A stretch of DNA of 64,000 nucleotides from Petroclostridium xylanilyticum (GCF_002252565.1 NZ_NPML01000002.1:62001-126000), one strand, 5' to 3'; shown: positions 47,756-63,923, counted from the first letter of the stretch. Notes: a model not told the origin generated them from the letters alone. Translations and numbers: made by a program.

Positions 47756-48889
47756 ATGTTTATAAATTTAGACAGGGAAGGTACTGTGGAAAGGTTGAAG
47801 TATCTGTTAAAACAGGCAGCTGATGATGAGAATACATCGGGAGTTCTCATTCTGGCTTGTGATGCCAACGGCTTTACTCCTGAAAAGGTTGATGAAGTTT
47901 TAAAACAGTGTAAAAAAACAGTATTTGGAGGAATTTTTCCTCAGATTTTATTTGATAAAGAAATATTCGAGAAGGGAACCGTTGTTGCTGGTATCAGTCA
48001 ACCTGTAAGTACTGCGGTGATTAGAGATATCAGTGACATATCTACTGATCTGGACGCAATCATAGAACAAACTTTTGAATGGCAATCTCTTGAAAATAAA
48101 ACGATGTTTGTCTTTATGGATGGACTTAGCCAACATATCTCTGCCCTAATTGAGAGCATGTTTAATTGTTGGGGGCTTCTCCCGAATTATATTGGTGGTG
48201 GTGCCGGTTCACTGACATTTGAAAGGAAGCCCTGTGTTTTTACCGGGGAAGGATTATTAAAAGATGCGGCAGTTTTTGCCCTGGCAGATATAAAAAGCGG
48301 GGTAGGGGTTGCTCATGGCTGGAAGCCTGTGACAGGTCCACTGAAAGTAACGGAAGCAGACCGCAATACAATAATTTCACTGAACTGGCGTCCGGCATTT
48401 GAAGTATATCGGGAAACGGTGGAAAAAATATCCGGGAAATCTTTTGACAATACTGATTTCTTCCAACTGGCGAAAGGGTTTCCCTTTGGGATTGTAAAAA
48501 TGGCAGAAGAAATGGTGGTTCGAGATCCTATTGCGCTGGATGGCGGCAGGTTGATTTGTGTCGGAGAAGTTCCTTTGAATTCTTTTGTCTATATATTAAA
48601 AGGAGATAAAGACTCTTTGATTGCTGGTGCAGCCAAAGCCCGTCAATTGGCTGAAGCATCCTATTGGAAAACAGTCAATGGGAAAAAAGAAAAACCTCTA
48701 ACTACCTTTTTTGTGGACTGTGTTTCCAGGGTTCTCTTTCTCCAGTCTGATTTTAATGAAGAACTGGAAGCAGTGTATGCAGGATATCCGCTTCTGGGGG
48801 TGTTGACTATAGGGGAGATTGCTAATACGGGAAAAGATTATCTTGAATTTTATAATAAGACTTCAGTCATCGGATTGTTGGAGGATTAA
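47756..48889 (+). CDS. FIST-domain sensory protein
   Basis: The 377-aa protein contains the FIST N domain (GVLILACDANGFTPEKVDEV, FGGIFPQILFDKE, YIGGGAGSLTF) and FIST C domain (KGFPFGIVKM, LICVGEVPLNS, GYPLLGVLTIGEIAN). FIST domains bind small ligands, proposed to be amino acids, and feed signalling proteins. The stop is three bases before a PAS-GGDEF-HD-GYP gene, so the FIST protein probably controls that enzyme. AAAGGGGCG precedes the ATG. Confidence 0.9.
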   Translation: MFINLDREGTVERLKYLLKQAADDENTSGVLILACDANGFTPEKVDEVLKQCKKTVFGGIFPQILFDKEIFEKGTVVAGISQPVSTAVIRDISDISTDLDAIIEQTFEWQSLENKTMFVFMDGLSQHISALIESMFNCWGLLPNYIGGGAGSLTFERKPCVFTGEGLLKDAAVFALADIKSGVGVAHGWKPVTGPLKVTEADRNTIISLNWRPAFEVYRETVEKISGKSFDNTDFFQLAKGFPFGIVKMAEEMVVRDPIALDGGRLICVGEVPLNSFVYILKGDKDSLIAGAAKARQLAEASYWKTVNGKKEKPLTTFFVDCVSRVLFLQSDFNEELEAVYAGYPLLGVLTIGEIANTGKDYLEFYNKTSVIGLLED

Positions 48890-48891
48890 AA

Positions 48892-51144
48892 ATGGATTAT
48901 ACAATATGGAGTCAAATTCTGCTCGAATTAGCTCTTTGTGTCAGTGGCGAGCAGGAACTGGACAAGCTGGTGAAAAAGGCCGCATCTGCATTTTTGAGAA
49001 AACTGAACTGCACCCATGTCAGTGTTTTACAATACAAAAATAATCGTTTGGAAACTATCTATGTTGTGCCACGGATAATCCTTAAAAATCCTGTTTATCA
49101 TGAGCTTATTGGAGAATTTGAAAGAAAATTGTTACAAGAAGAGGACAAAAACGTCATAGTAATAAAAAAGGATTTAAATTACTATGGGTTCCCACTGAGA
49201 AACTTCGGACTGCTCTTATTAGGGAGGAACGTTCCTATTGAAGAAATGTTTCTAAAAGAGCTTCTACCTATTACTAATATGTTGGCACAAAACTGTTTTG
49301 CTAATCTTGATGCCGCTATGAAACGTCAAGCTATAGAGGCCGAATTGAAAAAGGAGCGTCATTTACTGAGAGTAATTATAGACACTATTCCGGATTTGAT
49401 TTTTTACAAGGACCAAAATGGGGTTTATAAAGTAGCAAATGAGGCCGCGGGAAAGTTCCTATCTCTTTTACCGGAAGAAATAAACGGGCGTACTGACTGG
49501 GATCTTTATAATGAAGCTGAAGCAAACAAACACAGGAAACTTGATCATAAGGTTATGGAATCAGGCAGCGTTCAGCGCTATGAAGAGTGGGTTAAACGTC
49601 ATGATGGTAGTCTGGTTCCTTTTGAAACGATTAAGGTTCCTGTTTATGATGCGGAGGGCAGATGCGCAGGTACAGTTGCTGTTTCAAGAGATATCTCAGA
49701 ACGCGTGGAAGTCGATAAAAAAATTCAAACTGAAAAGAAATGGCTGGAAGTTTTGTTTAAAAACTCAACAGATGCCATAGTCCGCATTGACCATAATTAT
49801 TGTATAGAGGAAATTAATTATAGTTTTTATAAGCTTTTTGGGTATAAATTGGAAGAAATAAAAGGAAAAAATCTTGACTACGTCCTTGATATGGAAAAAG
49901 AAAACACTGCCAACAGGTATTATACAAAAACTTTATTATCGGGAAAGGAAATTATAGTAGAAGGCACACACTATACTAAAGAAGGATTGCCTGTTGAAGT
50001 TATAATAAGAGGCTTTCCCATTATTATTGATGGTGAATTGCTTGGTGCTTATGTGATTTATAGCGACATCACAGAGCACAAACGTTATGAAGAACAGTTG
50101 AAATACTTGAGTTTGCGCGATCAGCTTACCGGCCTTTACAACCGCAGGTTTATTGAAGAAGAAATAAAGAGGCTGGATACGCCGAGTCAACTGCCAATAT
50201 CCGTAATCATGGGCGACCTCAATGGCCTGAAGTTGGCTAATGACGCATTCGGGCACCAGGAGGGCGACAGGCTGCTGATAAAGACTGCGGAACTAATCAA
50301 AAATTCCTGCCGCCGGGAGGATCTTATTGCCCGGTGGGGCGGGGACGAATTCGTTATCCTTTTGCCTCAGACCGATATAAAAACGGCTGGGGAAATTACC
50401 CGGCGGATCAAAGAAAAATGCGATTCCCAGAAGGACGGTCCCGTACAGGTGAGCATTGCCCTTGGCTATGCCGCAAAAAGCAGAGCCGAAGAAAACATCT
50501 GGCAGGTATTGAAAGAAGCCGAGGACTGGATGTACCGCAATAAGCTTTTGCATGCCAAAAGCTACAGAAATGCCGTTATATCTTCCCTGAAGGCTACCCT
50601 TTTCGAAAAGAGCATGGAAACGGAAGAACACGCAGAACGGTTGAAAGAAATGTGCAGAAGGATTGGTGAGAGTATGGGCCTACCCCCCAAACAACTGGAC
50701 GAGCTGGAACTTTTAGCGATACTCCACGACATCGGTAAGGTGGCGATTAAGGAAAGCATATTGATGAAGCCGAGGCCTTTAACCGAGGAAGAATGGGTAC
50801 AAATGAGAAAACACCCTGAAATAGGATACAGGATTGCCCAGACGGTGCCGGAACTTGCCCCTATTGCCGAACATATCCTCTCCCATCATGAGCGATGGGA
50901 CGGCAAAGGTTATCCCCAAGGGCTGATGGGGCAGGAAATTCCATTGTTATCACGAATTCTGGCGGTTGCTGATGCCTTTGATGCCATGACAAATGACAGG
51001 ACATATCGGAAGGCAATGAGCAGGGAGGAAGCAATAGCTGAAATAAAAAGAAATGCGGGGACGCAGTTTGACCCGGAGGTAGTAAGTGCTTTTATTGAAA
51101 GCTGCTGCTACAGTGATAAAAATTTTCATGAAGGTCAGTATTAG
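48892..51144 (+). CDS. GAF-like/PAS/PAS/GGDEF/HD-GYP c-di-GMP signalling protein
   Basis: This 750-aa soluble protein has a GAF-like N-terminal part (1-150), two PAS domains (about 160-275 and 285-405; IPDLIFYKDQNGVYKVANEA, DITEHKRYEEQL), and a GGDEF domain with intact GGDEF near residue 483 and an RxxD inhibitory site (RRED) five residues before it. An HD-GYP domain has LHDIGK near 613 and HHERWDGKGYP near 665. It could synthesise and hydrolyse c-di-GMP. TTGGAGGATTAAAAATG gives the start. Codon use becomes more GC-rich after about 50100, which may mean the GGDEF-HD-GYP half has a different origin. Confidence 0.92.
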   Translation: MDYTIWSQILLELALCVSGEQELDKLVKKAASAFLRKLNCTHVSVLQYKNNRLETIYVVPRIILKNPVYHELIGEFERKLLQEEDKNVIVIKKDLNYYGFPLRNFGLLLLGRNVPIEEMFLKELLPITNMLAQNCFANLDAAMKRQAIEAELKKERHLLRVIIDTIPDLIFYKDQNGVYKVANEAAGKFLSLLPEEINGRTDWDLYNEAEANKHRKLDHKVMESGSVQRYEEWVKRHDGSLVPFETIKVPVYDAEGRCAGTVAVSRDISERVEVDKKIQTEKKWLEVLFKNSTDAIVRIDHNYCIEEINYSFYKLFGYKLEEIKGKNLDYVLDMEKENTANRYYTKTLLSGKEIIVEGTHYTKEGLPVEVIIRGFPIIIDGELLGAYVIYSDITEHKRYEEQLKYLSLRDQLTGLYNRRFIEEEIKRLDTPSQLPISVIMGDLNGLKLANDAFGHQEGDRLLIKTAELIKNSCRREDLIARWGGDEFVILLPQTDIKTAGEITRRIKEKCDSQKDGPVQVSIALGYAAKSRAEENIWQVLKEAEDWMYRNKLLHAKSYRNAVISSLKATLFEKSMETEEHAERLKEMCRRIGESMGLPPKQLDELELLAILHDIGKVAIKESILMKPRPLTEEEWVQMRKHPEIGYRIAQTVPELAPIAEHILSHHERWDGKGYPQGLMGQEIPLLSRILAVADAFDAMTNDRTYRKAMSREEAIAEIKRNAGTQFDPEVVSAFIESCCYSDKNFHEGQY

Positions 51145-52463: not shown

Positions 52464-53024
52464 TCAAAACTGGACAATAGAATATAACTCATCTTTTTGG
52501 TCCTGGTTTACTCCTATATAACGAAGGGTGATATATTGGGAACTGTGGTTGAAAGTGTCCATAATAAGTCCGATGTTATATTTGGAAGCTTTATATGTCC
52601 AGTAGCCCCAGGTTTTCCGAAGGCTATGCGTCCCAAAATTCTCAATGCCTAAAATATCAGCTGCATCCTTTAATATGCGGTAAGCCTGGACCCTTCCTAT
52701 GTGGCTGCCTTTTTTACTTGGGAATAGGAAACTGTTATAGTCCAGATGCGTGATCTTCAAATAATCCTGGATGTCTTTACGCAAAGTGCTGTTAAGCTTA
52801 ATCTTTTTTTCTTTTGCTGTTTTCTTCTCCTTTAAAACAAAATAATCACGGAACTGTCCGTTTTCGTTTAGAATATCCCCGACCCTTACAGAAAGGATGT
52901 CACTTATCCTTAACCCTGTATTAAGGCCAAACTTGAATAATAAACCATATTTAGGGTTTTTCCCGTTTAAAAATTGGTACATTTGCTTTATTTTCGTTTT
53001 ATCCCTTATTGGTTCTACGGTCAT
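52464..53024 (-). CDS. Tyrosine recombinase/integrase, catalytic domain only
   Basis: This 186-aa XerC/D-type recombinase lacks the N-terminal core-binding domain. Catalytic residues are visible: Arg in FGLNTGLRISDILS, H-x-x-R in THSLRKTWGYWT, His in DTFNHSSQ and the nucleophile Tyr in ITLRYIGVNQ. ATG 53024 follows GAGGAGA; a longer frame to 53081 enters an inverted repeat and is rejected. A perfect 17-bp inverted repeat lies 19 bases upstream. It may recombine a local element or an invertible segment; no attachment pair was identified. Confidence 0.9.
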   Translation of the reverse strand: MTVEPIRDKTKIKQMYQFLNGKNPKYGLLFKFGLNTGLRISDILSVRVGDILNENGQFRDYFVLKEKKTAKEKKIKLNSTLRKDIQDYLKITHLDYNSFLFPSKKGSHIGRVQAYRILKDAADILGIENFGTHSLRKTWGYWTYKASKYNIGLIMDTFNHSSQYITLRYIGVNQDQKDELYSIVQF

Positions 53025-53042
53025 AAAAAAATCTCCTCTCGC

Positions 53043-53082
53043 AATGTATTGTTTTATAAATATTATTATAAAACAATACATT
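53043..53082. promoter_or_regulatory. Perfect 17-bp inverted repeat upstream of the recombinase
   Basis: AATGTATTGTTTTATAA (53043-53059) and its exact complement (53066-53082) are separated by ATATTA. The position at the recombinase promoter suggests an operator or a recombination core site. Confidence 0.75.
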
Positions 53083-53214: not shown

Positions 53215-55206
53215 ATGGAGTACGAAAAAATTAAAACAGTCAGGAATCCAAGTTTAAAAACAAGCCAGCAGTTTGTGCCTGCCAAACCAAAAGACGATAA
53301 GGGCTTTGAATTCAAGAAACCGTTGAATCTGCCTGAAGTAAATCACCAAATGCAGCAGGACAATAATATGGATTTTGCCAGGAAAAAAGCACAGCGGCAG
53401 GAGATACAAAAGAACTCAATTGTTGAAAGGCTTGCTGTAGTGACTGCCCAGACTTCAAGCGCAATCAACCAGTCAATGGCAAACCTGAATGAGTTGCAGG
53501 TTGCCGTTCAGGAAATGGCTGCTGCAGCTGAAGAAGCTTCTAATGCAAGCAGCCAGTCTTTGAAAGCTGTCACAAAGATTGAAACCAATTCAAAATTGTT
53601 TGAAGAAAAGAGTGTGAATTTATCTTCAGTATTTGGAAAACTGCAGGAACTCATTAATGACGCCAATGATAATATTAGTGCGATGATTAATGCTATAAAC
53701 CTTGCGGGTAAAGTCAGCAAGGATTCAGTTGAAAATGTTACGCAGCTTGAAAGCCTTGCCGAGAGTATCGGCAAGACAGTGGAAGCTGTAATGGAGGTAG
53801 CAGACCAGACCAACCTGCTCGCGTTAAATGCAGCCATAGAAGCTGCAAGGGCAGGCAAATACGGAAGAGGCTTTGCAGTGGTCGCAGATGAAGTAAGGAC
53901 ACTGGCTGAAGTTACAAACAAATCAGCAATTGAGATAAATGATGTGATAAAGCAGATACAGGAGGATGTCAAAACTGTTGCAAACGACATTGCAAAGGCC
54001 GGGGAAATGTCCGACAAACAGGTTAAAGATGCGGAAATTGTAACCAAAGAACTGGTTGAAACCAGGAAAGATGTAGCAGAACTCATAAAACTTGTAAATG
54101 AAATAGTAGTTTTAGCTAAAGATACTTTGAATGCAGCAACCGAGGTTAAAGGAGGCAGCCAGCAAATCCAGGCCGCAGCGCAGGAGGCTGCATCGGCAAC
54201 CGAAGAAAGCAACGCATCCCTTATCGAACAATCGAGGGCGTTTAATGAAATATCCAATGCAGCAACTGCTTTGGCAGATATGGCTGAAGAAATCAAGATG
54301 GTTTCTGTGACAAAGAGGAATGCGGAAGAGCTGGCAACCGCAGCAATGGAAATATCATCCATGGTTGAGGAGTCAAACAAGGCTGCAGCACAGATTTCCA
54401 TGGCTCTGGAGCAGATAATGACTGCTGCTGAAGAGCAGTCTGCCGCATGTGAACAGTCCCAGAAGGGAGCGAAACAGGTTGAAGCACAGTCTGCAAATAT
54501 TGAACAGAAACTTGAGTTCATAAACAAGAAAGTCGATGAACTGCAAGCAAGGCTTGAAAAGAACAAGTCGGAAGTAGAGGCACTTATCAAGGGTATAAAC
54601 GAAGGGAGTGCCCAGAACAGCAAATCACTGGAAAATGTCAGGGTATTGTCAAAAAGGATGCGGAAAATTGATAAAATCGTTGACTCGATTACCAATGTGA
54701 CTACAAAGATAGACCTTCTCTCGCTGAACGGCTCGATAGAAGCAGCACGGAGCGGCAAGTATGGTAAAGGATTTGCAGTGGTTGCGGGAGATATAAAACA
54801 GTTGGCAGAACAATCAGCGCAAGCAGTTGAGAATATAAAGGACATGATAAAGGATGTGGATGACCAGATTGGCGTAGTTGCCGGCGATGTCCAGGGTGCA
54901 GTACAGAAATCGCTCCAGGAAGTGGAAAAAGCTTCGAAAACAACGCAATTGCTTGAAAACATCAAAAACGACATGGGAGATGTGAAAACGGATACAGGTA
55001 GACTCCTGTCAATGGCAAAGGAAAATAAGGACTATATCAAAGAGGTTGTGGCTGGAATCACTCAAATTGCCAACGGGGCAGAACAGGCTTCACAGGCAGC
55101 CCAGAATGCTTCCACCCAGGCCCAGGAACAGTCAAAAGCGCTTGAACAGATTGCCGTTGCAAACCAGCAGATTGTTTCAATGTCTGAAGAATTAAGGAAT
55201 TTATAA
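53215..55206 (+). CDS. Soluble chemoreceptor with two MCP signalling tips
   Basis: The 663-aa protein has no membrane helix or sensor domain, only a charged N-terminal 80 residues and long coiled coils. It carries two receptor hairpin tips: [18 protein letters not shown] near residue 198 and [18 protein letters not shown] near 499, each followed by YG-x-GFAVVA. A normal MCP has one tip. The second tip is less canonical (Ser/Gly replacing Ala/Ala). AGGAGGG precedes the ATG. It heads the chemosensory operon and probably organises a cytoplasmic array. Confidence 0.92.
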
Positions 55207-55219
55207 AGGGGGGTTGGTT

Positions 55220-55759
55220 ATGGCGGAAAAGATGATGGAAGAAAGCAATGCTATGGTGCAGCTTGATGAAGAAGACGAGGAACTCCTTGATGAGACGCAG
55301 CTGGTAATATTCAAACTGGGAGACGAAGAATATGGCGTAAATATAATGCAGGTAAAGGAAATTATCAGGATGGCTGCCATAAATAAGGTGCCACAGGTTC
55401 CCCAGTTTGTAGAAGGCATAATCAGTTTAAGAGGTGAAATCCTGCCTATAATAGACCTGCGTGAAAAATTCGGGATTCCCAAAAAAGAGAAGGGAAGGTC
55501 TACACGGATACTCGTAATAAACCTTGACAGCACCACCATCGGCGGGATTGTGGATGAAGTGACAGAAGTATTGAGGATACAGAACTCTGCCATAAAACCG
55601 TCTCCACAAGTTATAAAAGGCATGAATTCCGATTATCTGCTGGGTATTGGCCAGATTGGCGGAAGGATCATCATTTTGCTTGACATGGCACGGATCCTTA
55701 ATACAAGTGAAGTGATAAGGATAAAGGAAATTGCAGAAGAACTGAATAAAAATGCATAA
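55220..55759 (+). CDS. cheW: CheW coupling protein
   Basis: The 179-aa protein has a short acidic N-terminus (EEDEELLDE), then a CheW domain (LVIFKLGDEEYGVNIMQVKE, FVEGIISLRGEILPIIDLRE, GIVDEVTEVLRI). It links receptors to the CheA kinase in the cytoplasm. ATG 55220 follows AAAGGGGGG; the TTG at 55214 is less likely. It lies 13 bases after the receptor gene and 18 before cheB. Confidence 0.95.
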   Translation: MAEKMMEESNAMVQLDEEDEELLDETQLVIFKLGDEEYGVNIMQVKEIIRMAAINKVPQVPQFVEGIISLRGEILPIIDLREKFGIPKKEKGRSTRILVINLDSTTIGGIVDEVTEVLRIQNSAIKPSPQVIKGMNSDYLLGIGQIGGRIIILLDMARILNTSEVIRIKEIAEELNKNA

Positions 55760-55777: not shown

Positions 55778-56809
55778 ATGGTAAGGGCCTTAATAGCTGA
55801 CGATTCATTGTTTATGCGCAGGGCAATCTCACGCATGCTTGCTTCCAGCCAGGAAATTGAAATTGCAGGTTTTGCGGCAAATGGAAAGGAGGCTTTGGAA
55901 AAAACAATAGAATTAAAGCCAGATGTTGTTACCATGGATGTCGAAATGCCTGTGATGGATGGCATAGAAGCACTTGGGAAGATTATGGAGATATGCCCTA
56001 CTCCTGTTGTCATGATCAGCACAATGACAAAAAGGGGGGCAGAGGTTACTTTAAAAGCCCTTTCGATGGGTGCTGTGGATTTTGTGGAGAAACCTTCATC
56101 ATACTCCAGCGAGCTTGAGGAACAGCGTAAAGCGATTATTTATAAAGTGTTGAATGCCGCAAGGGCTAATGTCAGGGTAAAGCGGACAGAAGGGAATATT
56201 TATATACCACCGAAGACAGTGAGGCCAGGTTTCAAAGCTGAAGCAGTTATAATAGGCGTCTCGACAGGCGGACCTAAAACATTGCATGAGATAGTGCCAA
56301 AACTACCTTCCAACCTGGGGGTACCTGTGTTTATAGTACAGCATATGCCTGCCTTGTTTACTGGTAATTTTGCTGCAGAACTTGACCGTGTAAGCAATAT
56401 TAAAGTAAAAGAAGCCCGTGATGGAGAACCGGTTATGCCAAATACTGTATACATCGCACCGGGTGGGAGGCAAATGGAGATATTCAGAACCTTGACGGCG
56501 AAAATCGCCGTCAAGGTTACTGATGGGCCGGAAGATGCCCTGTATAAACCATGTGTAGATATTACCGCTTTTTCTGTAGCAGAAACCTATAAAGCTGGTA
56601 CACTCGGGGTCATGCTTACAGGAATGGGAAATGACGGGGCAAGGGCGTTTGGATATATAAAAAAGTGCGGGGGCATCAACATTGTGGAAGCTGAAAGTAC
56701 TGCCGTAATTTTCGGCATGCCAAAAGTGGTTTTGGATTCCGGAAATGCGGATTTTGTGCTTCCTTCATTTAAAATTGCGGAAAAAATCAAAGAACTTGCA
56801 TATGCATAA
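55778..56809 (+). CDS. cheB: CheB receptor methylesterase/deamidase
   Basis: The 343-aa protein has an N-terminal receiver (phospho-Asp in VVTMDVEMPVMDG near residue 54) and a C-terminal esterase with the catalytic triad: Ser in GVSTGGPKTL near 163, His in VQHMPALFTGNF near 188, Asp in GMGNDGARA near 285. It removes methyl groups from receptor glutamates. AAAGGGGG precedes the ATG. Confidence 0.96.
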   Translation: MVRALIADDSLFMRRAISRMLASSQEIEIAGFAANGKEALEKTIELKPDVVTMDVEMPVMDGIEALGKIMEICPTPVVMISTMTKRGAEVTLKALSMGAVDFVEKPSSYSSELEEQRKAIIYKVLNAARANVRVKRTEGNIYIPPKTVRPGFKAEAVIIGVSTGGPKTLHEIVPKLPSNLGVPVFIVQHMPALFTGNFAAELDRVSNIKVKEARDGEPVMPNTVYIAPGGRQMEIFRTLTAKIAVKVTDGPEDALYKPCVDITAFSVAETYKAGTLGVMLTGMGNDGARAFGYIKKCGGINIVEAESTAVIFGMPKVVLDSGNADFVLPSFKIAEKIKELAYA

Positions 56810-56851
56810 ATGCGGTGCAGGCTTATTTAAAGGGTTCTTGCGGTTTATACA

Positions 56852-56945
56852 TGTCCAACTTTGAAATTAAAAATAATAACGCAGTTGGACTCCTATATCA
56901 AGCCAGCCTTGTAGTTAGTGTTAATTTTTAACTTCAAGTTTGGCT
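56852..56945 (+). other. Inverted-repeat spacer between cheB and cheA
   Basis: GTCCAACT...AGTTGGAC (8 bp) forms one hairpin. A second segment (GTTAATTTTTAACTTCAAG) resembles the inverse of the first (CTTTGAAATTAAAAATAA). At 181 bases (cheB stop to cheA start) this is the only sizeable gap in the operon. It may tune downstream expression. Confidence 0.45.
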
Positions 56946-56990
56946 GTCTATACTTCAAAGGATAAATAGAAATTGGAAGGAGGATGGGGA

Positions 56991-58604
56991 ATGGAGTACG
57001 CACGGATTTTGGAAGATTTGATACAGAAGGGTGTAAGAATTTTCAAGGTAGAACTCCTTCTCGATGCAAAAGCTGAATTTAAAAGCGCAACAGCAGCAAA
57101 AATATTGAAAGGATTGAAAGAAAAATACAGCGTCCTTTTCACATTGCCGGACTTAAGCAGTGACGGACTTGATGAAGACAACTGTGAATACCGCTTTTTC
57201 CTGGAAGGTGATATCGTGCTGCAAGCATTGAAAGAACTGATGGATGGCCTTGTAACCAATGAATGCGGTATTGATACATACTTTATCCAGGAAGTATTAA
57301 TGGATGATATTGATGCCGCTGTTGGCATTTATAATCTGGAACAGGTTGGAAATGGTAAGGAAATGGCTCACAATGACAGCGTTGCAGGACAGGAAGAGAA
57401 TAAGAACACAAAAGCCGATTCGGTAAGGATAGACATAGCCAAACTAAATATATTGAGCAACCTTGCAGCGGAGCTTGTAACCTGCAAAGCGCAGGTGGTG
57501 CAAGTCCTGAATATGTTTAAATCCCTCCGGGTTGCAGACAAGGATATTCAGACTGTAATAGATTATTTTGAAAAGGGGACATCCCAGCTCGAACGGATAT
57601 CTTTTGATTTGCAGGAACAAATAACGCAGCTTAGGATGTTCCCTATAAAGACGGTCTTCAGGAAAATCCCGAGGATTGTCAGGGATTTGGCTGTAAAATG
57701 CGGCAAAGAGATAGAACTTGATATCAAAGGCGAGGATACGGAACTGGACAAAACGGTGCTGGAACAGATTTCTGACCCGTTGGTGCATCTTGTAAGGAAT
57801 TGTGTGGATCATGGCATTGAAGCAGCTGAAGAGAGGACAGTGAATGGCAAGCCTGCAAAGGGAAGGATAACCATCAAAGCATATACCGAAGGGGACATTG
57901 TTTATTTAGAGGTGGAAGATGACGGAAGGGGTATCGATGTCGGAAAAATAAAGGAAAAAATCCTTGAAAACCGGCTTGCTTCTAAAGAGGAAATTGAGAT
58001 GATGGATGAGGGCCAGATAATGGACTATATTTTCAGGCCCGGCTTCTCCACTGCAGAAACTGTAAGTGAAATTTCTGGCAGAGGAGTAGGGATGGATGTT
58101 GTCCGCAGGAATATATCCCTTGTAAAAGGGAACATCAAGATTGAGAGCAAAAAAGGTTATGGGACCAAATTCATAATCCAGATACCGCTTACTGTAGCCA
58201 TTGTCAAGTCCTTGATGGTATTTGCATGCGGAAGGCTTTATTTGGTGCCCATAGACAAGGTAGTTGAGACATTCAAGGTTAAAACATCAAACATCAGGAC
58301 CGTGAACAACAAGAAAATCGTTAGTTGGAACGGGGAAATCGTTCCTATATTCAGTTTAGGTGAAATGCTTGGTTTGGAAGCAAAATATGATGATGAACAC
58401 CTGTATACCGTAGTTGTCCAGTATCGTAGTTCTAAAGTTGGAATAATTGTAAACAGGCTGTTGGGGGAACAGGAAGCAGTGGTGAAACCACTGGACAAAT
58501 ACATCGGGATGGTGGAAGGCATCATGGGGGCAACCATCCTTGGCGACGGCAAAGTGGTGCTGATGCTTGAGCCTGTAGGCTTGATTGACAGGATAGCAGG
58601 ATAG
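56991..58604 (+). CDS. cheA: CheA-type histidine kinase lacking the P1/Hpt domain
   Basis: The 537-aa protein starts with a P2-like domain (residues 1-110, VRIFKVELLLDAKAEFKSAT), then P3 dimerisation helices (about 145-215), a P4 ATPase (N-box HLVRNCVDHGIEAAEERT near 266, G1 DDGRGID near 310, GRGVGMDVVRRN near 364) and a P5/CheW-like domain to the end. No phospho-accepting His box is present at the N-terminus, and the chosen start follows GGAAGGAGG, so nothing is hidden upstream. The phosphotransfer domain is likely supplied by the Hpt-CheW protein at 61354. Confidence 0.93.
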   Translation: MEYARILEDLIQKGVRIFKVELLLDAKAEFKSATAAKILKGLKEKYSVLFTLPDLSSDGLDEDNCEYRFFLEGDIVLQALKELMDGLVTNECGIDTYFIQEVLMDDIDAAVGIYNLEQVGNGKEMAHNDSVAGQEENKNTKADSVRIDIAKLNILSNLAAELVTCKAQVVQVLNMFKSLRVADKDIQTVIDYFEKGTSQLERISFDLQEQITQLRMFPIKTVFRKIPRIVRDLAVKCGKEIELDIKGEDTELDKTVLEQISDPLVHLVRNCVDHGIEAAEERTVNGKPAKGRITIKAYTEGDIVYLEVEDDGRGIDVGKIKEKILENRLASKEEIEMMDEGQIMDYIFRPGFSTAETVSEISGRGVGMDVVRRNISLVKGNIKIESKKGYGTKFIIQIPLTVAIVKSLMVFACGRLYLVPIDKVVETFKVKTSNIRTVNNKKIVSWNGEIVPIFSLGEMLGLEAKYDDEHLYTVVVQYRSSKVGIIVNRLLGEQEAVVKPLDKYIGMVEGIMGATILGDGKVVLMLEPVGLIDRIAG

Positions 58605-58618
58605 AAGGAGTGTTTTTA

Positions 58619-60142
58619 GTGGATAAAGAATTATTGTTAAAAAATCTGGAAAGCAATGACTATATTGTACAAAAAGAAGCAATAAGGAAGCTTGTAAACT
58701 ACAATGAACCCATTGTAATTGACAGGCTGGTCCAAGTGTTATTGAATAACCAGAATAAGATGGTGGAAGATGTTTTATTGGAAAGCCTCAAACAGATGGG
58801 AGGAAGTTACCTAATGTCAGCTATGCTGGGACTGCTCGGTCATGGCGAGGCTTACATAAGGAATTTTGCTTTTGAAGTGTTAATGGCAATCGGAGGGCAG
58901 GATGTAGAGTTAATTATACAACAGACAGGAAATGAGGACAGGAATGTAAGGAAGTTTATTGTCGATATACTTGGAAGCATAGGTGACAAGCAAGCAGTTG
59001 GACCTTTGGTTGAGCGCCTTGAGGATGAAGATGTAAATGTTGTACAGGGTGCTGTTGAAGCGCTGGGCAATATCGGGGACAACAGTGTTGCTGGACTTCT
59101 GGTGGAAATGCTGCCCGTCTCCCATCAATGGGTACAATACACAATCCTTGATGTGCTTTCAAGGATAGGAGACAGCATAACCTTTTCCAACATATTAAAT
59201 ATGCCTTGGGAAACAGAAACAGGAATATATGGAGAAATATTCAAAATAATGAGAGATAAGGGCGATGGAGGACATGTTGAAGACTTAATTGGATTATATG
59301 AGAGGATTATGCTGCAGCTGCAAATGCAGGTGGTTGATGCAGTGCTTTCGATATCCAGGATGGAAGAAGTTGAATTTATTGCTAATATATTAAATAACAG
59401 TGATATCATATACAATTTGAAAAGCACGATAATTTTCGGTGAAGAAACGCAAAAAAACAAGCTGGTCTCTTATATTGCCGGGCTGGAAGCGCCGGCTGCC
59501 ATAGCAATATTGGGCAGGACGCTGTTTGATGAAACTATGGTATCTGTCTTTAAAGATTCTATAAAAAATTGCACTGTTGTTGACGACTACCATATAAACC
59601 TGTTCAAATGCGTAAAGTTTTTTGACAGCTGCACTGCAAAGGATATACTGGCAGATGTGCTGGAAAACGGTTGCGAGCCATATGTCGGGATTTCATTGGA
59701 CATTTTAAAGCAAAAACACATATACGATCTGTATCCGCAGCTTGTAGGGCTGTTAAAGAAAAAGTGCAGGATTATTGAGACAATCAAGCTGCTTGGCTCA
59801 TGGCCTGATGATAAATTAGACCTGGACGGAATTTACCATCTGTACGGTGAGTTCAATGATGAGGCCAGGTACTATGTATTAACAGAAATACTTTTGAAAT
59901 CAGGATATCAGGACCAAAGGGTGGTGGATGCGGTTGGACAACTGCTGGAAAACGCCATGCTTCAAGACAGTATGCTCATAAATGTTATCGGGATTGCTTC
60001 TGACATGGGAAGGGAAGAATTTGAGCCTTTACTTGAAAAGTTAATTGCCAGCCCGAATATGGATATATCTATCGCCGCAATTGAAGCTGCAGAAAAGATA
60101 CGATGGGGGATAAATGGAAATGCTGAAGAAACTGGGCAATGA
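58619..60142 (+). CDS. HEAT-repeat protein of the chemosensory operon
   Basis: The product has about 507 aa from GTG 58619, preceded by AGAAGGAG. The first 200 residues are clear HEAT/PBS-lyase-type repeats of about 31 residues (DRLVQVLLNNQNKMVEDVLL, VRKFIVDILGSIGDKQAVGP, VVQGAVEALGNIGDNSVAGL), the rest diverged helical repeats. No enzyme motif. It lies 14 bases after cheA, and its end overlaps cheR, so it belongs to the pathway, probably as a scaffold or output partner. Confidence 0.88.
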   Translation: MDKELLLKNLESNDYIVQKEAIRKLVNYNEPIVIDRLVQVLLNNQNKMVEDVLLESLKQMGGSYLMSAMLGLLGHGEAYIRNFAFEVLMAIGGQDVELIIQQTGNEDRNVRKFIVDILGSIGDKQAVGPLVERLEDEDVNVVQGAVEALGNIGDNSVAGLLVEMLPVSHQWVQYTILDVLSRIGDSITFSNILNMPWETETGIYGEIFKIMRDKGDGGHVEDLIGLYERIMLQLQMQVVDAVLSISRMEEVEFIANILNNSDIIYNLKSTIIFGEETQKNKLVSYIAGLEAPAAIAILGRTLFDETMVSVFKDSIKNCTVVDDYHINLFKCVKFFDSCTAKDILADVLENGCEPYVGISLDILKQKHIYDLYPQLVGLLKKKCRIIETIKLLGSWPDDKLDLDGIYHLYGEFNDEARYYVLTEILLKSGYQDQRVVDAVGQLLENAMLQDSMLINVIGIASDMGREEFEPLLEKLIASPNMDISIAAIEAAEKIRWGINGNAEETGQ

Positions 60143-60962
60143 TGAATTTAAGCATATACGGGAATACATATATGAAAAAAGCGGGCTGTATTTTGATGAT
60201 ACAAAAAAAGATTACCTGGAAAAAAGGCTGTTTGTCAGGATGAACCAGCTGAAAGTGCAGTCCTTTATTGAATATTATTATATGCTGAAGGTTGACAAAA
60301 ACGGTGAATTCAATAAGTTGGCCGAACTCATCACAACAAATGAGACATATTTTTTCAGGAATATCCCGCAGCTTAATACTTTTTCGTATCATATGCTGCC
60401 TGAATTGCTGACGCGGAAAGCCAATTCAGGTGATTTCAGGCTGAAAATATGGAGTGCGGGATGTTCAAGCGGAGAAGAACCATATACCATCGCCATCATA
60501 CTGAAAGAACGGCTCGAGTATATAGAAGACTGGGATATTGACATATATGGGACTGATATAAGCTTAAGGGTGCTGGAACTTGCAAGGGTTGGCGAATATT
60601 TCCCGCGGTCCTTGATGGACACGGGGGAGGATATTAAAAAAAAATATTTCAGACACGATGCTTTAAAAAATATGTATACAATTAACCAGGATATTAAGGA
60701 TATGGTTAGGTTGAAGCATTTAAACCTGTTTGATTCGCACCAGATGGCGTTTTTTAGAAATATAGATGTAATTTTTTGCAGGAATGTGTTGATATATTTT
60801 GATGAAGATTCAAGGAAAAGCGTAGTTGAAAGATTTTATGATGCTTTAATGCCAGGGGGGTATATAATACTTGGACACTCTGAAAGCATGTTGAGGATAA
60901 CCAGGGCGTTTGAAATGTTAAGGATGGGCGATGATATAGCCTATAGGAAACCATTGAAATGA
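60114..60962 (+). CDS. cheR: CheR receptor methyltransferase
   Basis: This is a protein of about 282 aa. The N-terminal helical domain (FKHIREYIYEKSGLYFDDTK, TTNETYFFRN) is followed by a SAM-binding Rossmann fold (IWSAGCSSGEEPYTIAI) and the motifs DIYGTDIS and IFCRNVLIYFD. It methylates receptor glutamates, opposing CheB. The start at 60114 overlaps the HEAT gene by 29 bases; ATG 60120 is better spaced from GGGGGA. No TPR extension or receptor-tethering site is evident. Confidence 0.95.
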   Translation: MEMLKKLGNDEFKHIREYIYEKSGLYFDDTKKDYLEKRLFVRMNQLKVQSFIEYYYMLKVDKNGEFNKLAELITTNETYFFRNIPQLNTFSYHMLPELLTRKANSGDFRLKIWSAGCSSGEEPYTIAIILKERLEYIEDWDIDIYGTDISLRVLELARVGEYFPRSLMDTGEDIKKKYFRHDALKNMYTINQDIKDMVRLKHLNLFDSHQMAFFRNIDVIFCRNVLIYFDEDSRKSVVERFYDALMPGGYIILGHSESMLRITRAFEMLRMGDDIAYRKPLK

Positions 60963-60985
60963 GAGGTTGAGGAGGATGTTGAAAA

Positions 60986-61342
60986 ATGGCAAAAATACTC
61001 ATTGTGGACGATTCTGACATGATAAAGAAAATTGTTGTGGGCACGCTTGCCAGAGGGGGACACCAGGTTGTGGAGGCGTCAAATGGATTGGAAGCTCTGG
61101 AGAGAATAAGCAGCACTCATTGTGACCTGGTCATAACTGACCTGAACATGCCAAAAATGGACGGCATACAGTTTACAAGAGAGTTAAGGAAGATGCCTTC
61201 ATATAAACGCATGCCTATATTCATATTGACCACCAACCCAGCCGAAGAAGAGAAAGCTTTGGCAGCAGGCGCAAACCTGTATTTAAAGAAGCCAGTATCT
61301 TCGGAAAAACTTTTGTCAAGCATTGATAAATATTTGAAATAG
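60986..61342 (+). CDS. cheY: CheY response regulator
   Basis: The 118-aa single receiver has ILIVDDSDM, phospho-Asp in LVITDLNMPKMDG near residue 53, Thr in IFILTTN and Lys in YLKKPV. GAGGAGG lies upstream. It is the likely diffusible output of the split kinase. The target is unknown because no motor gene lies in the window. Confidence 0.94.
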   Translation: MAKILIVDDSDMIKKIVVGTLARGGHQVVEASNGLEALERISSTHCDLVITDLNMPKMDGIQFTRELRKMPSYKRMPIFILTTNPAEEEKALAAGANLYLKKPVSSEKLLSSIDKYLK

Positions 61343-61353
61343 AGGTGGTAAAA

Positions 61354-62253
61354 GTGGAAGAATTCAATTCAAGCGAATACCAGGAAATTAAAAATGATTT
61401 TATTGACGAGGCAATGGAACACCTGCAAACCTTGGAGGACGGCCTTTTGATCATCGAACAGGATAGTGGCGATTATGAGCTTTTGAATACTGTTTTCAGG
61501 GCGGTACATTCCATTAAAGGTGCGGCTGATTATTTGGAACTGGATAAAATAGTAGCAACAGCCCATGTGATGGAAAATATACTTGATGATTTGCGGAATG
61601 GTACAGCTAAAGCAAATAAACAAGTAGTAAATTACCTTTTGAAAGGAGTTGACTTGCTGCAGGGATTGGTACATGAAGTCAAGACGGGCGAAGATAAAAA
61701 TATTGATTACCAGTCTTTTGTAAACGAAGCGCCAAGTATTGATAATGCAGGAAAGGATTCAGAAACAAAAAATAATTTGTCCACAATAAGGCTAAACACG
61801 GATAATCCTGACAGGTATGAAGGAGATGATGAACTAGAACAATCCAACAAATATATCATTTTTAAACTTGCAGACCAGTGCTATGGGGTTAATGTGTCTG
61901 AAATAAAGGAGATAGTAAAAATATCCGAAATTACCCCGATACCGTATTTGGATGAAGACATAACCGGATTGATGAATTTAAGAGGGGAAATCATTACCAT
62001 TGTCGACATGCGGAAAAAACTTACGGCAAACGGAACGAATGACAGTAAAAACAGGATTATCATTTTGAACAGGGAAGACACGCAAGTCGGGTTTATAGTT
62101 GACCAGGTTATGGAGGTAATGGAATTATTGCCAGAAGATATAAAGCCTCCCATGGTAGACAGGGACTTTAATGCCGATTATGTGTATGGGGTTGCGGAAA
62201 CCCAAAAAGCATTTATCATGCTCCTTGATATAAGGAAAATTTTGAATATTTGA
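61354..62253 (+). CDS. Hpt-CheW fusion protein (phosphotransfer domain in trans)
   Basis: This is a 299-aa two-domain protein. The N-terminal Hpt/P1 domain (about 1-110) has the phospho-accepting His52 in AVHSIKGAADYLELD. A polar linker (about 115-160) leads to a complete CheW domain (YIIFKLADQCYGVNVSEIKE, GLMNLRGEIITIVDMRKKL). There is no kinase domain. GTG 61354 follows AGAGGTGG; GTG 61345 overlaps that site. Paired with the P1-less CheA, it would complete a split kinase, its CheW half docking it into the array. Confidence 0.92.
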   Translation: MEEFNSSEYQEIKNDFIDEAMEHLQTLEDGLLIIEQDSGDYELLNTVFRAVHSIKGAADYLELDKIVATAHVMENILDDLRNGTAKANKQVVNYLLKGVDLLQGLVHEVKTGEDKNIDYQSFVNEAPSIDNAGKDSETKNNLSTIRLNTDNPDRYEGDDELEQSNKYIIFKLADQCYGVNVSEIKEIVKISEITPIPYLDEDITGLMNLRGEIITIVDMRKKLTANGTNDSKNRIIILNREDTQVGFIVDQVMEVMELLPEDIKPPMVDRDFNADYVYGVAETQKAFIMLLDIRKILNI

Positions 62254-62266
62254 CATGGTGGGCTTC

Positions 62267-62761
62267 ATGGGTAGAAATACAACTGTTTTGGTTATTGATG
62301 ATTCGGCAGTATGGCGCAAAATTATAAGGAAAAGGCTCAAGGATTTGGGATTTATCATTGTAGGCGAAGCTGCTGACGGACAGGATGGTGTTGGGAAGTA
62401 TATTTCTTTGAAACCCGACCTGGTGACAATGGATATTGAAATGCCGACCATGGATGGGTTAGCGGCAACCAAGCGGATACTTGAGATTGACCCCTGCGCC
62501 AGGATTATTATCGTAAGCTCAAAAGGTGATGAAAGTACCGTCAGGAAAGCCCTCCTTATCGGTGCAATTGATTTTATCGGCAAGGCGTCTATAAGCAAAG
62601 TTTGGGACTCAAAACTGAAAAAATATGTAAAAAAGGCAGGGTATAGTCAGACCTTCAAGAAAATTGCCGGTTATATAAAGGATATAAAGCCAGCTAAATT
62701 ATTAGCCATGATTGTGTCAAAATACTCTGCAAGAAGGAAGAAGGATGGCTATGGAGACTAA
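62267..62761 (+). CDS. Stand-alone CheB-type receiver with basic tail
   Basis: The 164-aa protein begins with a receiver most like those of CheB ([18 protein letters not shown], phospho-Asp in [13 protein letters not shown] near residue 55, [21 protein letters not shown]). It ends in a lysine-rich helical tail ([20 protein letters not shown]) with no esterase domain. ATG 62267 follows GGTGGG; ATG 62255 is possible. It may be a second phospho-acceptor or phosphate sink. It overlaps the last receptor gene. Confidence 0.88.
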
Positions 62762-63923
62762 AGTGGCAAAAGTTTTATTTGCAGCGCTGCTTCTTGCGAT
62801 TGCTATAAATGGTGTAATATGTATTTTTTGGCCTTACAGGGTGTTGCTGGTTGCTTTTTTGCTCCTGCAGGCAGTTGTTGTACTGTTTGTGGCAAAGGAA
62901 TTTATATATGTATTAAAAAGCTTTGAAACCGTTGAGAAAATATGGCTTGAACTTGGACTCCCAAAAGGGACAGGTTCAGCTGGAAGTCAAGGCCTGAAAC
63001 TGTTGCTGGAACATATAAGGGAACTGCAAGACTGCAGGAGTGAAATTTTAAGATGTGCCCAACAAAATGTACAGGAAATTGAAATAAAAAAGCATGAGCT
63101 TGATGATGGAATTAATAAAATCCAGGGTAAAGCATTGAGGATAGCTGAAAATTCAACAGTGCAGGCAGGCGACATGGAATTATGCTACCAAAAGGCATTG
63201 GAGCTGTCAGAAAACATTTCGGATGTTATCGCAAAAACTGACAGCCTTTTTGGGCTTTCTTTAAAAGCACAGGAGCTAAGGGACCAGGGAGTATGCGTTA
63301 TAGGCAGGTTAATAGAAAAAGAGAAAGATGCGGAAGAATCGTTTAAACAGGTTAGCGAAGCTATTGTTGCTGCCAGAAAAAAGGATATGGAGATTGCTGC
63401 TATTATGGAAGATATAGATGATATTGCAAGGAAAACCAACCTTCTAGCCCTAAATGCTGCCATTGAGGCGGCAAGGGCTGGCAATGCTGGAAAAGGCTTT
63501 ATGGTTGTAGCAGAAGAAGTCAGGAAATTAGCTGCCCAGACAACACAGTTTACAAAAGGTATAAATGGCCTAATATCCAGTATCCAAAAACAATACGAAT
63601 ATGCGGATATGGCTGTACGAGGGGCTATTTCTGTAAATTATGAACAGAGGGACATAGTAGGAAGCACAAAAGATATTTTTGACCAAATTCAAGGCATATT
63701 ATCATCGTTCATACAAGAAATTGAAACTGTAAAGTCGAGTGGAGAAGAAATGGACAAAAAGAAATGGGAGATATTATCCTTTGTAGAAAAAATAGCGCTT
63801 GCATCCCATGAGGGGATAGGTGAGGTTGAGCAGATGAACGAACTTATAAGCTCACTAAAAAATAATATTGAGCTGTTGGACATTTTGGATGGGTGCCAAA
63901 GCTTGAACAAAATACCAATATAA
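62745..63923 (+). CDS. Membrane-anchored chemoreceptor without periplasmic sensor
   Basis: This is a protein of about 392 aa. Two adjacent membrane helices (residues about 8-28 and 33-52) leave almost no extracellular loop. The cytoplasmic part has a coiled coil and an MCP tip [18 protein letters not shown] near residue 232, then [18 protein letters not shown]. It probably senses an internal or membrane state, or anchors the array. ATG 62745 overlaps the receiver gene by 17 bases, with GGAAGAAGG upstream. Confidence 0.9.

Follow-up and report, generated by a model that had tools for sequence, protein, structure and literature searches.

The window, a 64,000-nucleotide stretch of the Petroclostridium xylanilyticum genome (NZ_NPML01000002.1:62001-126000), contains a chemosensory operon on the plus strand that spans positions 53215 to at least 63923; the segment 56991-62253, to which the original prediction was confined, is only part of it. 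Gaps between the genes are 23 bp or less, with the sole exception of 181 bp upstream of cheA. The first gene (53215..55206) encodes a soluble double-headed chemoreceptor with two Pfam MCPsignal matches and neither a transmembrane segment nor a hydropathy peak. It is followed by a CheW adaptor (55220..55759; Pfam CheW, E 4.5e-39) and a CheB methylesterase (55778..56809; Pfam Response_reg and CheB_methylest, NCBIfam PRK00742 above cut-off). Beyond the long gap (56810..56990), which holds overlapping imperfect inverted repeats, are genes for a CheA (56991..58604), a HEAT-repeat protein conserved in the operon (58610..60142; Pfam HEAT_2), a CheR methyltransferase (60114..60962; Pfam CheR and CheR_N) and a CheY-type receiver (60986..61342; Pfam Response_reg) in whose sequence the conserved Asp, Thr and Lys are present. 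The remaining genes encode an Hpt-CheW fusion (61354..62253), a second receiver protein, RR2, that is nearest to the CheB receiver by Pfam and NCBIfam (62255..62761), and a membrane-anchored chemoreceptor (62748..63923; Pfam MCPsignal) with a hydrophobic N-terminus and a hydropathy peak from residue 9. Rfam returned no match anywhere in the operon, the 181-bp gap included, and promoter and terminator scans yielded about the same as shuffled sequence.

A further gene (L094:1961-3352) starts 37 bp past the last receptor gene of the window and encodes a GGDEF-EAL protein in which, by eye, the EAL motifs are present and the GGDEF motif is degenerate. The operon is a conserved block with a predicted EAL phosphodiesterase at its end. 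Immediately upstream of the operon, on the opposite strand, lies a gene for a phage-integrase family recombinase (52464-53081), and the region 47756-51144 encodes a FIST sensor protein and, after it, a PAS-GGDEF-HD protein.

The cheA reading frame runs from an ATG at 56991, preceded at about 8 nt by a strong ribosome site (GGAGG), to a stop at 58604 and encodes 537 residues. Pfam matched H-kinase_dim (143-213), HATPase_c (261-401) and CheW (408-534), which constitute P3, P4 and P5, and found no Hpt domain. The N-terminus, roughly the first 105 residues, matched the P2 domain of complete CheAs by hhalign (E 1.3e-6) and the P2 of Thermotoga maritima CheA (PDB 1u0s, E 1.2e-5), and its profile did not match P1 (E 0.76). 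In the AlphaFold2 model residues 17-102 form a beta-alpha-beta-beta-alpha-beta fold at a pLDDT of about 90, and the helical Hpt bundle is not seen. By these profiles and the model, the first domain (residues ~15-103) is P2 proper. Pfam, the hhalign profiles and the model rule out a hidden P1, and a P1 directly upstream is excluded because the preceding gene is cheB and the 181-bp gap is too small to hold one. The kinase was originally described as starting with a P2-like domain behind a strong ribosome site and lacking a His box, and this description agrees with the P2-P3-P4-P5 arrangement found here. The motifs RNCVDHGIE, DDGRGID, GRGVGMD and GYGTKF are all present, the P3-P5 model has fold matches to 1b3q and 1i58, and the P4 model matches the solved ATP-bound CheA P4. 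As judged from the sequence, the catalytic and ATP-site motifs look intact.

The P1/Hpt domain with a phosphorylatable histidine is encoded by a separate gene of the same operon, as had been claimed for a 299-residue protein placed 2.7 kb downstream. This reading frame extends from a GTG at 61354 to a stop at 62253, begins 2.75 kb past the kinase stop, and is separated from it by three intact genes. Pfam matched Hpt at residues 12-102 (E 2.9e-15) and CheW at 167-298 (E 3.1e-32); the AlphaFold2 model places P1 at 11-107, a flexible linker at 132-162 and a CheW-type domain at 165-298. Among 84 aligned P1/Hpt domains, His52, Lys55 and Glu74 do not vary and His71 hardly does. Fold matches were to 1i5n and 1tqg for the P1 half and to the CheWs 2qdl and 6s1k_C for the CheW half. 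In Hpt-CheW, a flexible linker connects an intact P1 of the CheA type with a CheW domain. The latter scored 135 bits against an adaptor-CheW profile versus 33 bits against a P5 profile, gave hhalign E-values of 6.7e-35 for adaptor CheW versus 1.7e-10 for P5, and sits among CheWs in the tree. These comparisons favor an adaptor CheW over a CheA P5 and disfavor derivation of the protein from a CheA that lost P2-P4. The adaptor assignment is favored and not proven, since grouping with P5 survives an AU test on this short domain (p 0.264), which leaves room for that derivation.

We searched about 780 different Bacillota genomes, comprising 391 of the class and 398 of the phylum with some overlap. 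The 391 genomes of the class held no second Hpt-CheW fusion. Among the 398 phylum genomes, full-length or two-part matches were found in G504, in G704 and in five genomes of one genus; G565 contig 2 proved identical to plasmid NC_012036.1 from C. bescii DSM 6725, which identifies the genus as Caldicellulosiruptor. C. bescii was formerly placed in Anaerocellum. The genus was in 2010 usually classed with the Clostridia, and NCBI now places it in Bacillota incertae sedis. Four of the five Caldicellulosiruptor genomes contain the whole operon, gene for gene, with the last receiver and receptor swapped relative to the window. The order MCP-CheW-CheB-CheA-HEAT-CheR-CheY-HptCheW-(MCP,RR)-GGDEF/EAL is thus shared by the window and Caldicellulosiruptor, as is a single kinase clade. 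Identity between window and C. bescii (L119, which also has an RR2 ortholog) is 68% for CheW, 64% for CheY, 62% for CheR, 56% for CheB, 54% for the soluble receptor (L119:3575-5527), 52% for the kinase, 36% for Hpt-CheW and 34% for the HEAT protein. The gene next after the operon was checked in C. bescii, where it encodes a PAS-GGDEF-EAL protein; in the other three genomes this position is taken by a similarly sized reading frame or has no entry in the list of reading frames.

A kinase search of the same 398 phylum genomes was bimodal, with four orthologs at 569-576 bits and all other matches at or below 360. An orthologous P1-less kinase is present in 5 of the ~780 genomes, those of the window and four Caldicellulosiruptor, and each of the five has Hpt-CheW in the same operon. 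The fifth Caldicellulosiruptor genome (G539) retains an orphan hpt-cheW next to an IS110 transposase, and its kinase is gone. At L117:8379-12266, in one Caldicellulosiruptor, a truncated receptor gene and the orphan hpt-cheW flank the IS110 transposase, and the intervening genes are gone. Outside this set, the core gene order recurs in G704, where Hpt-CheW accompanies a 602-residue P1-less kinase that also exceeds the Pfam cut-off for P2. In the kinase tree the window and Caldicellulosiruptor form one clade (100/100), and the G704 kinase falls outside it on a long branch; its operon may have diverged from this type or may have arisen independently. Because the co-occurrence is seen in two lineages (the window and a single genus) and in the diverged operon of G704, part of the linkage between kinase and Hpt-CheW reflects shared descent.

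The sister of the kinase clade (95/95) is a two-Hpt CheA from a related operon of other Clostridia, represented in the tree by L087 and L098. These operons (L086, L087, L088, L089 and L098) carry the receptor, CheB, HEAT, CheR, CheY and RR2 genes in the order of the window, but their CheA is a single protein with two Hpt domains, located at the position that Hpt-CheW holds in the window, and their CheW is a triple-domain protein. Their full order is receptor, triple CheW, CheB, HEAT, CheR, CheY, two-Hpt CheA and receiver. Most of them also have a stand-alone Hpt protein that ends in a STAS-like region, and in L086 a second triple CheW adjoins a ParA-type ATPase.

Hpt-CheW proteins were also observed beside complete CheAs. 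In G504 one (L114:9371-10270) is encoded near a complete 1009-residue CheA that has CheW and receiver domains, and on four Riflebacteria contigs proteins of 499-513 residues directly follow a complete CheA (L068:8897-10435, L076:8400-9899, L082:8894-10435 and L084:8915-10435); the L068 protein has a Pfam P2 between Hpt and CheW. The Hpt of these Hpt-(P2-)CheW proteins has as its nearest relative the P1 of the adjacent complete CheA, which suggests that the same fusion originated separately beside complete CheAs. The expectation that Hpt-CheW would be found only with a P1-less CheA held for all five orthologous kinases, with the one orphan at IS110, and failed in G504 and the Riflebacteria; presence of the fusion alone is therefore no proof that it serves a P1-less kinase. 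Several candidates were set aside. Apparent fusions in Fuchsiella and Halonatronum, from a scan of contigs, were neighboring CheW and CheA genes that the search had merged. Stand-alone Hpt candidates were CheAs cut by contig ends (G506, G650) or broken into two overlapping reading frames (G578), and a separate Hpt in G371 runs into the contig end and was left out of the count. A split CheA in G030 (L090:7743-9961) is a two-Hpt CheA in two reading frames, interrupted at seven consecutive A in the linker that precedes P3, probably by a frameshift.

Split CheAs are a known and rare kind, to which the operon of the window adds a member. In Cereibacter (Rhodobacter) sphaeroides, the division of labor between CheA3 and CheA4 was shown biochemically (PMC3591291, PMC6829392): either protein alone was not labelled, and CheA3 was labelled when CheA4 was present (PMC3591291). 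The analogy originally drawn to this pair is apt, as both systems encode, within one operon, a P1-less kinase half and a histidine half that lacks an active kinase, each half bears a CheW-family domain, and the Rhodobacter pair acts as one CheA (PMC3591291, PMC10782961). In contrast to the window kinase, CheA4 has no P2. In CheA3, P1 is separated from P5 by 794 residues that contain decayed P2-P4 and a phosphatase region for CheY6-P, whereas the 299-residue Hpt-CheW has a linker of ~57 residues, no long central region and a C-terminal half that scores as adaptor CheW and not as P5. Amin et al. (2013) proposed that split bifunctional kinases permit ultrasensitive or bistable responses (PMC3591291). 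We do not extend this proposal to the window because it needs a phosphatase in the histidine half, and the window protein has no obvious region of this kind.

Berry et al. (2023) found Hpt in 98.3% of 13,673 CheA sequences, the remainder being contig ends or split cases, and described bipartite CheAs in which a P1-less CheA has an adjacent Hpt gene (PMC10782961). The window resembles these in having the Hpt encoded alongside; it differs in that its Hpt is fused to CheW, through which the array can retain it. The closest precedent is the survey of Hamer et al. (2010), which listed for C. saccharolyticus both a CheA3-like protein with a short linker (P1 plus CheW/P5) and a CheA4-like, P1-less CheA, and for Anaerocellum thermophilum a protein of the former type (PMC2829493). 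These belong to the genus of the orthologous operon, of which C. bescii L119 has both halves in the gene order of the window, and the novelty for Clostridia implied by the original prediction is not supported in view of them. That account, however, takes up a few sentences, scores the kinase as P3-P4-P5 without P2 and does not describe the operon (PMC2829493). We have not found two features described, namely the P2 kept on the kinase half and the anchoring of the histidine half by an apparent adaptor CheW. Further additions are the conserved operon block ending in a predicted EAL phosphodiesterase and the separate origins of Hpt-CheW beside complete CheAs. Outside Rhodobacter, split CheA is thus a stable operon type common to two Bacillota lineages. 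Its compact histidine half is an easier object of study than CheA3, and tests could use C. bescii, which is available as a cultured host.

We propose, with a probability of about 0.85, that the two proteins together form one CheA in which the P1-less kinase phosphorylates His52 of Hpt-CheW in trans, inside the receptor array. The P2-P3-P4-P5 protein would dimerize, bind ATP and join the array through P5 and, having no histidine of its own, would phosphorylate His52 in trans. The CheW half would hold the histidine domain, flexibly tethered, within that array. Phospho-His52 would then pass its phosphate to the receivers of the operon, CheY (60986), RR2 (62255) and CheB, for which the P2 of the kinase may serve as docking site. 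More tentatively, and at somewhat less than even odds, Hpt-CheW may occupy CheW places in the array, in which case the ratio of histidine domain to kinase would be set by competition with plain CheW and not fixed at one per kinase. If so, the supply of histidine would be separated from kinase number, and array stoichiometry becomes a testable question.

Elsewhere in the genome there is one other P3-type kinase, a complete CheA with its own intact P1 on contig 7, in a flagellar locus adjoining flhA and cheC. The sole additional Hpt protein is a hybrid kinase (C2:49 kb). The P1-less kinase could mainly phosphorylate the P1 of the flagellar CheA, linking the two pathways and leaving Hpt-CheW as a phosphate sink or shuttle. 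That P1 is intact, and a liberated Hpt domain is stated to be fully functional in trans (PMC10782961), but Hpt-CheW has a complete P1 network of its own and is kept with the kinase in one operon in 5/5 orthologous cases, and we consider this arrangement improbable. About half as probable is the reverse case, with the flagellar CheA or the hybrid kinase charging Hpt-CheW and the P1-less CheA serving as a catalytically silent scaffold: this would accord with the Hpt-CheW proteins beside complete CheAs in G504 and Riflebacteria, yet the ATP-site motifs look intact and the P4 model resembles the ATP-bound form. Error or decay can account for individual cases, such as the CheA of G030 broken at a seven-A run, which may be an assembly error, and the G539 operon cut beside its transposase. 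As an explanation of the split in the window it has a negligible chance, given the 2.75 kb and three intact genes between the halves and the strong ribosome site of the kinase, and it is refuted by conservation in four other genomes.

The proposed two-protein CheA belongs to a second chemosensory system, apart from the flagellar locus. Its output could be flagella, pili or c-di-GMP, because the genome has the flagellar-locus CheA and also encodes PilB- and PilT-like ATPases. With a conserved EAL protein ending the operon, c-di-GMP turnover is a reasonable guess from the gene content.
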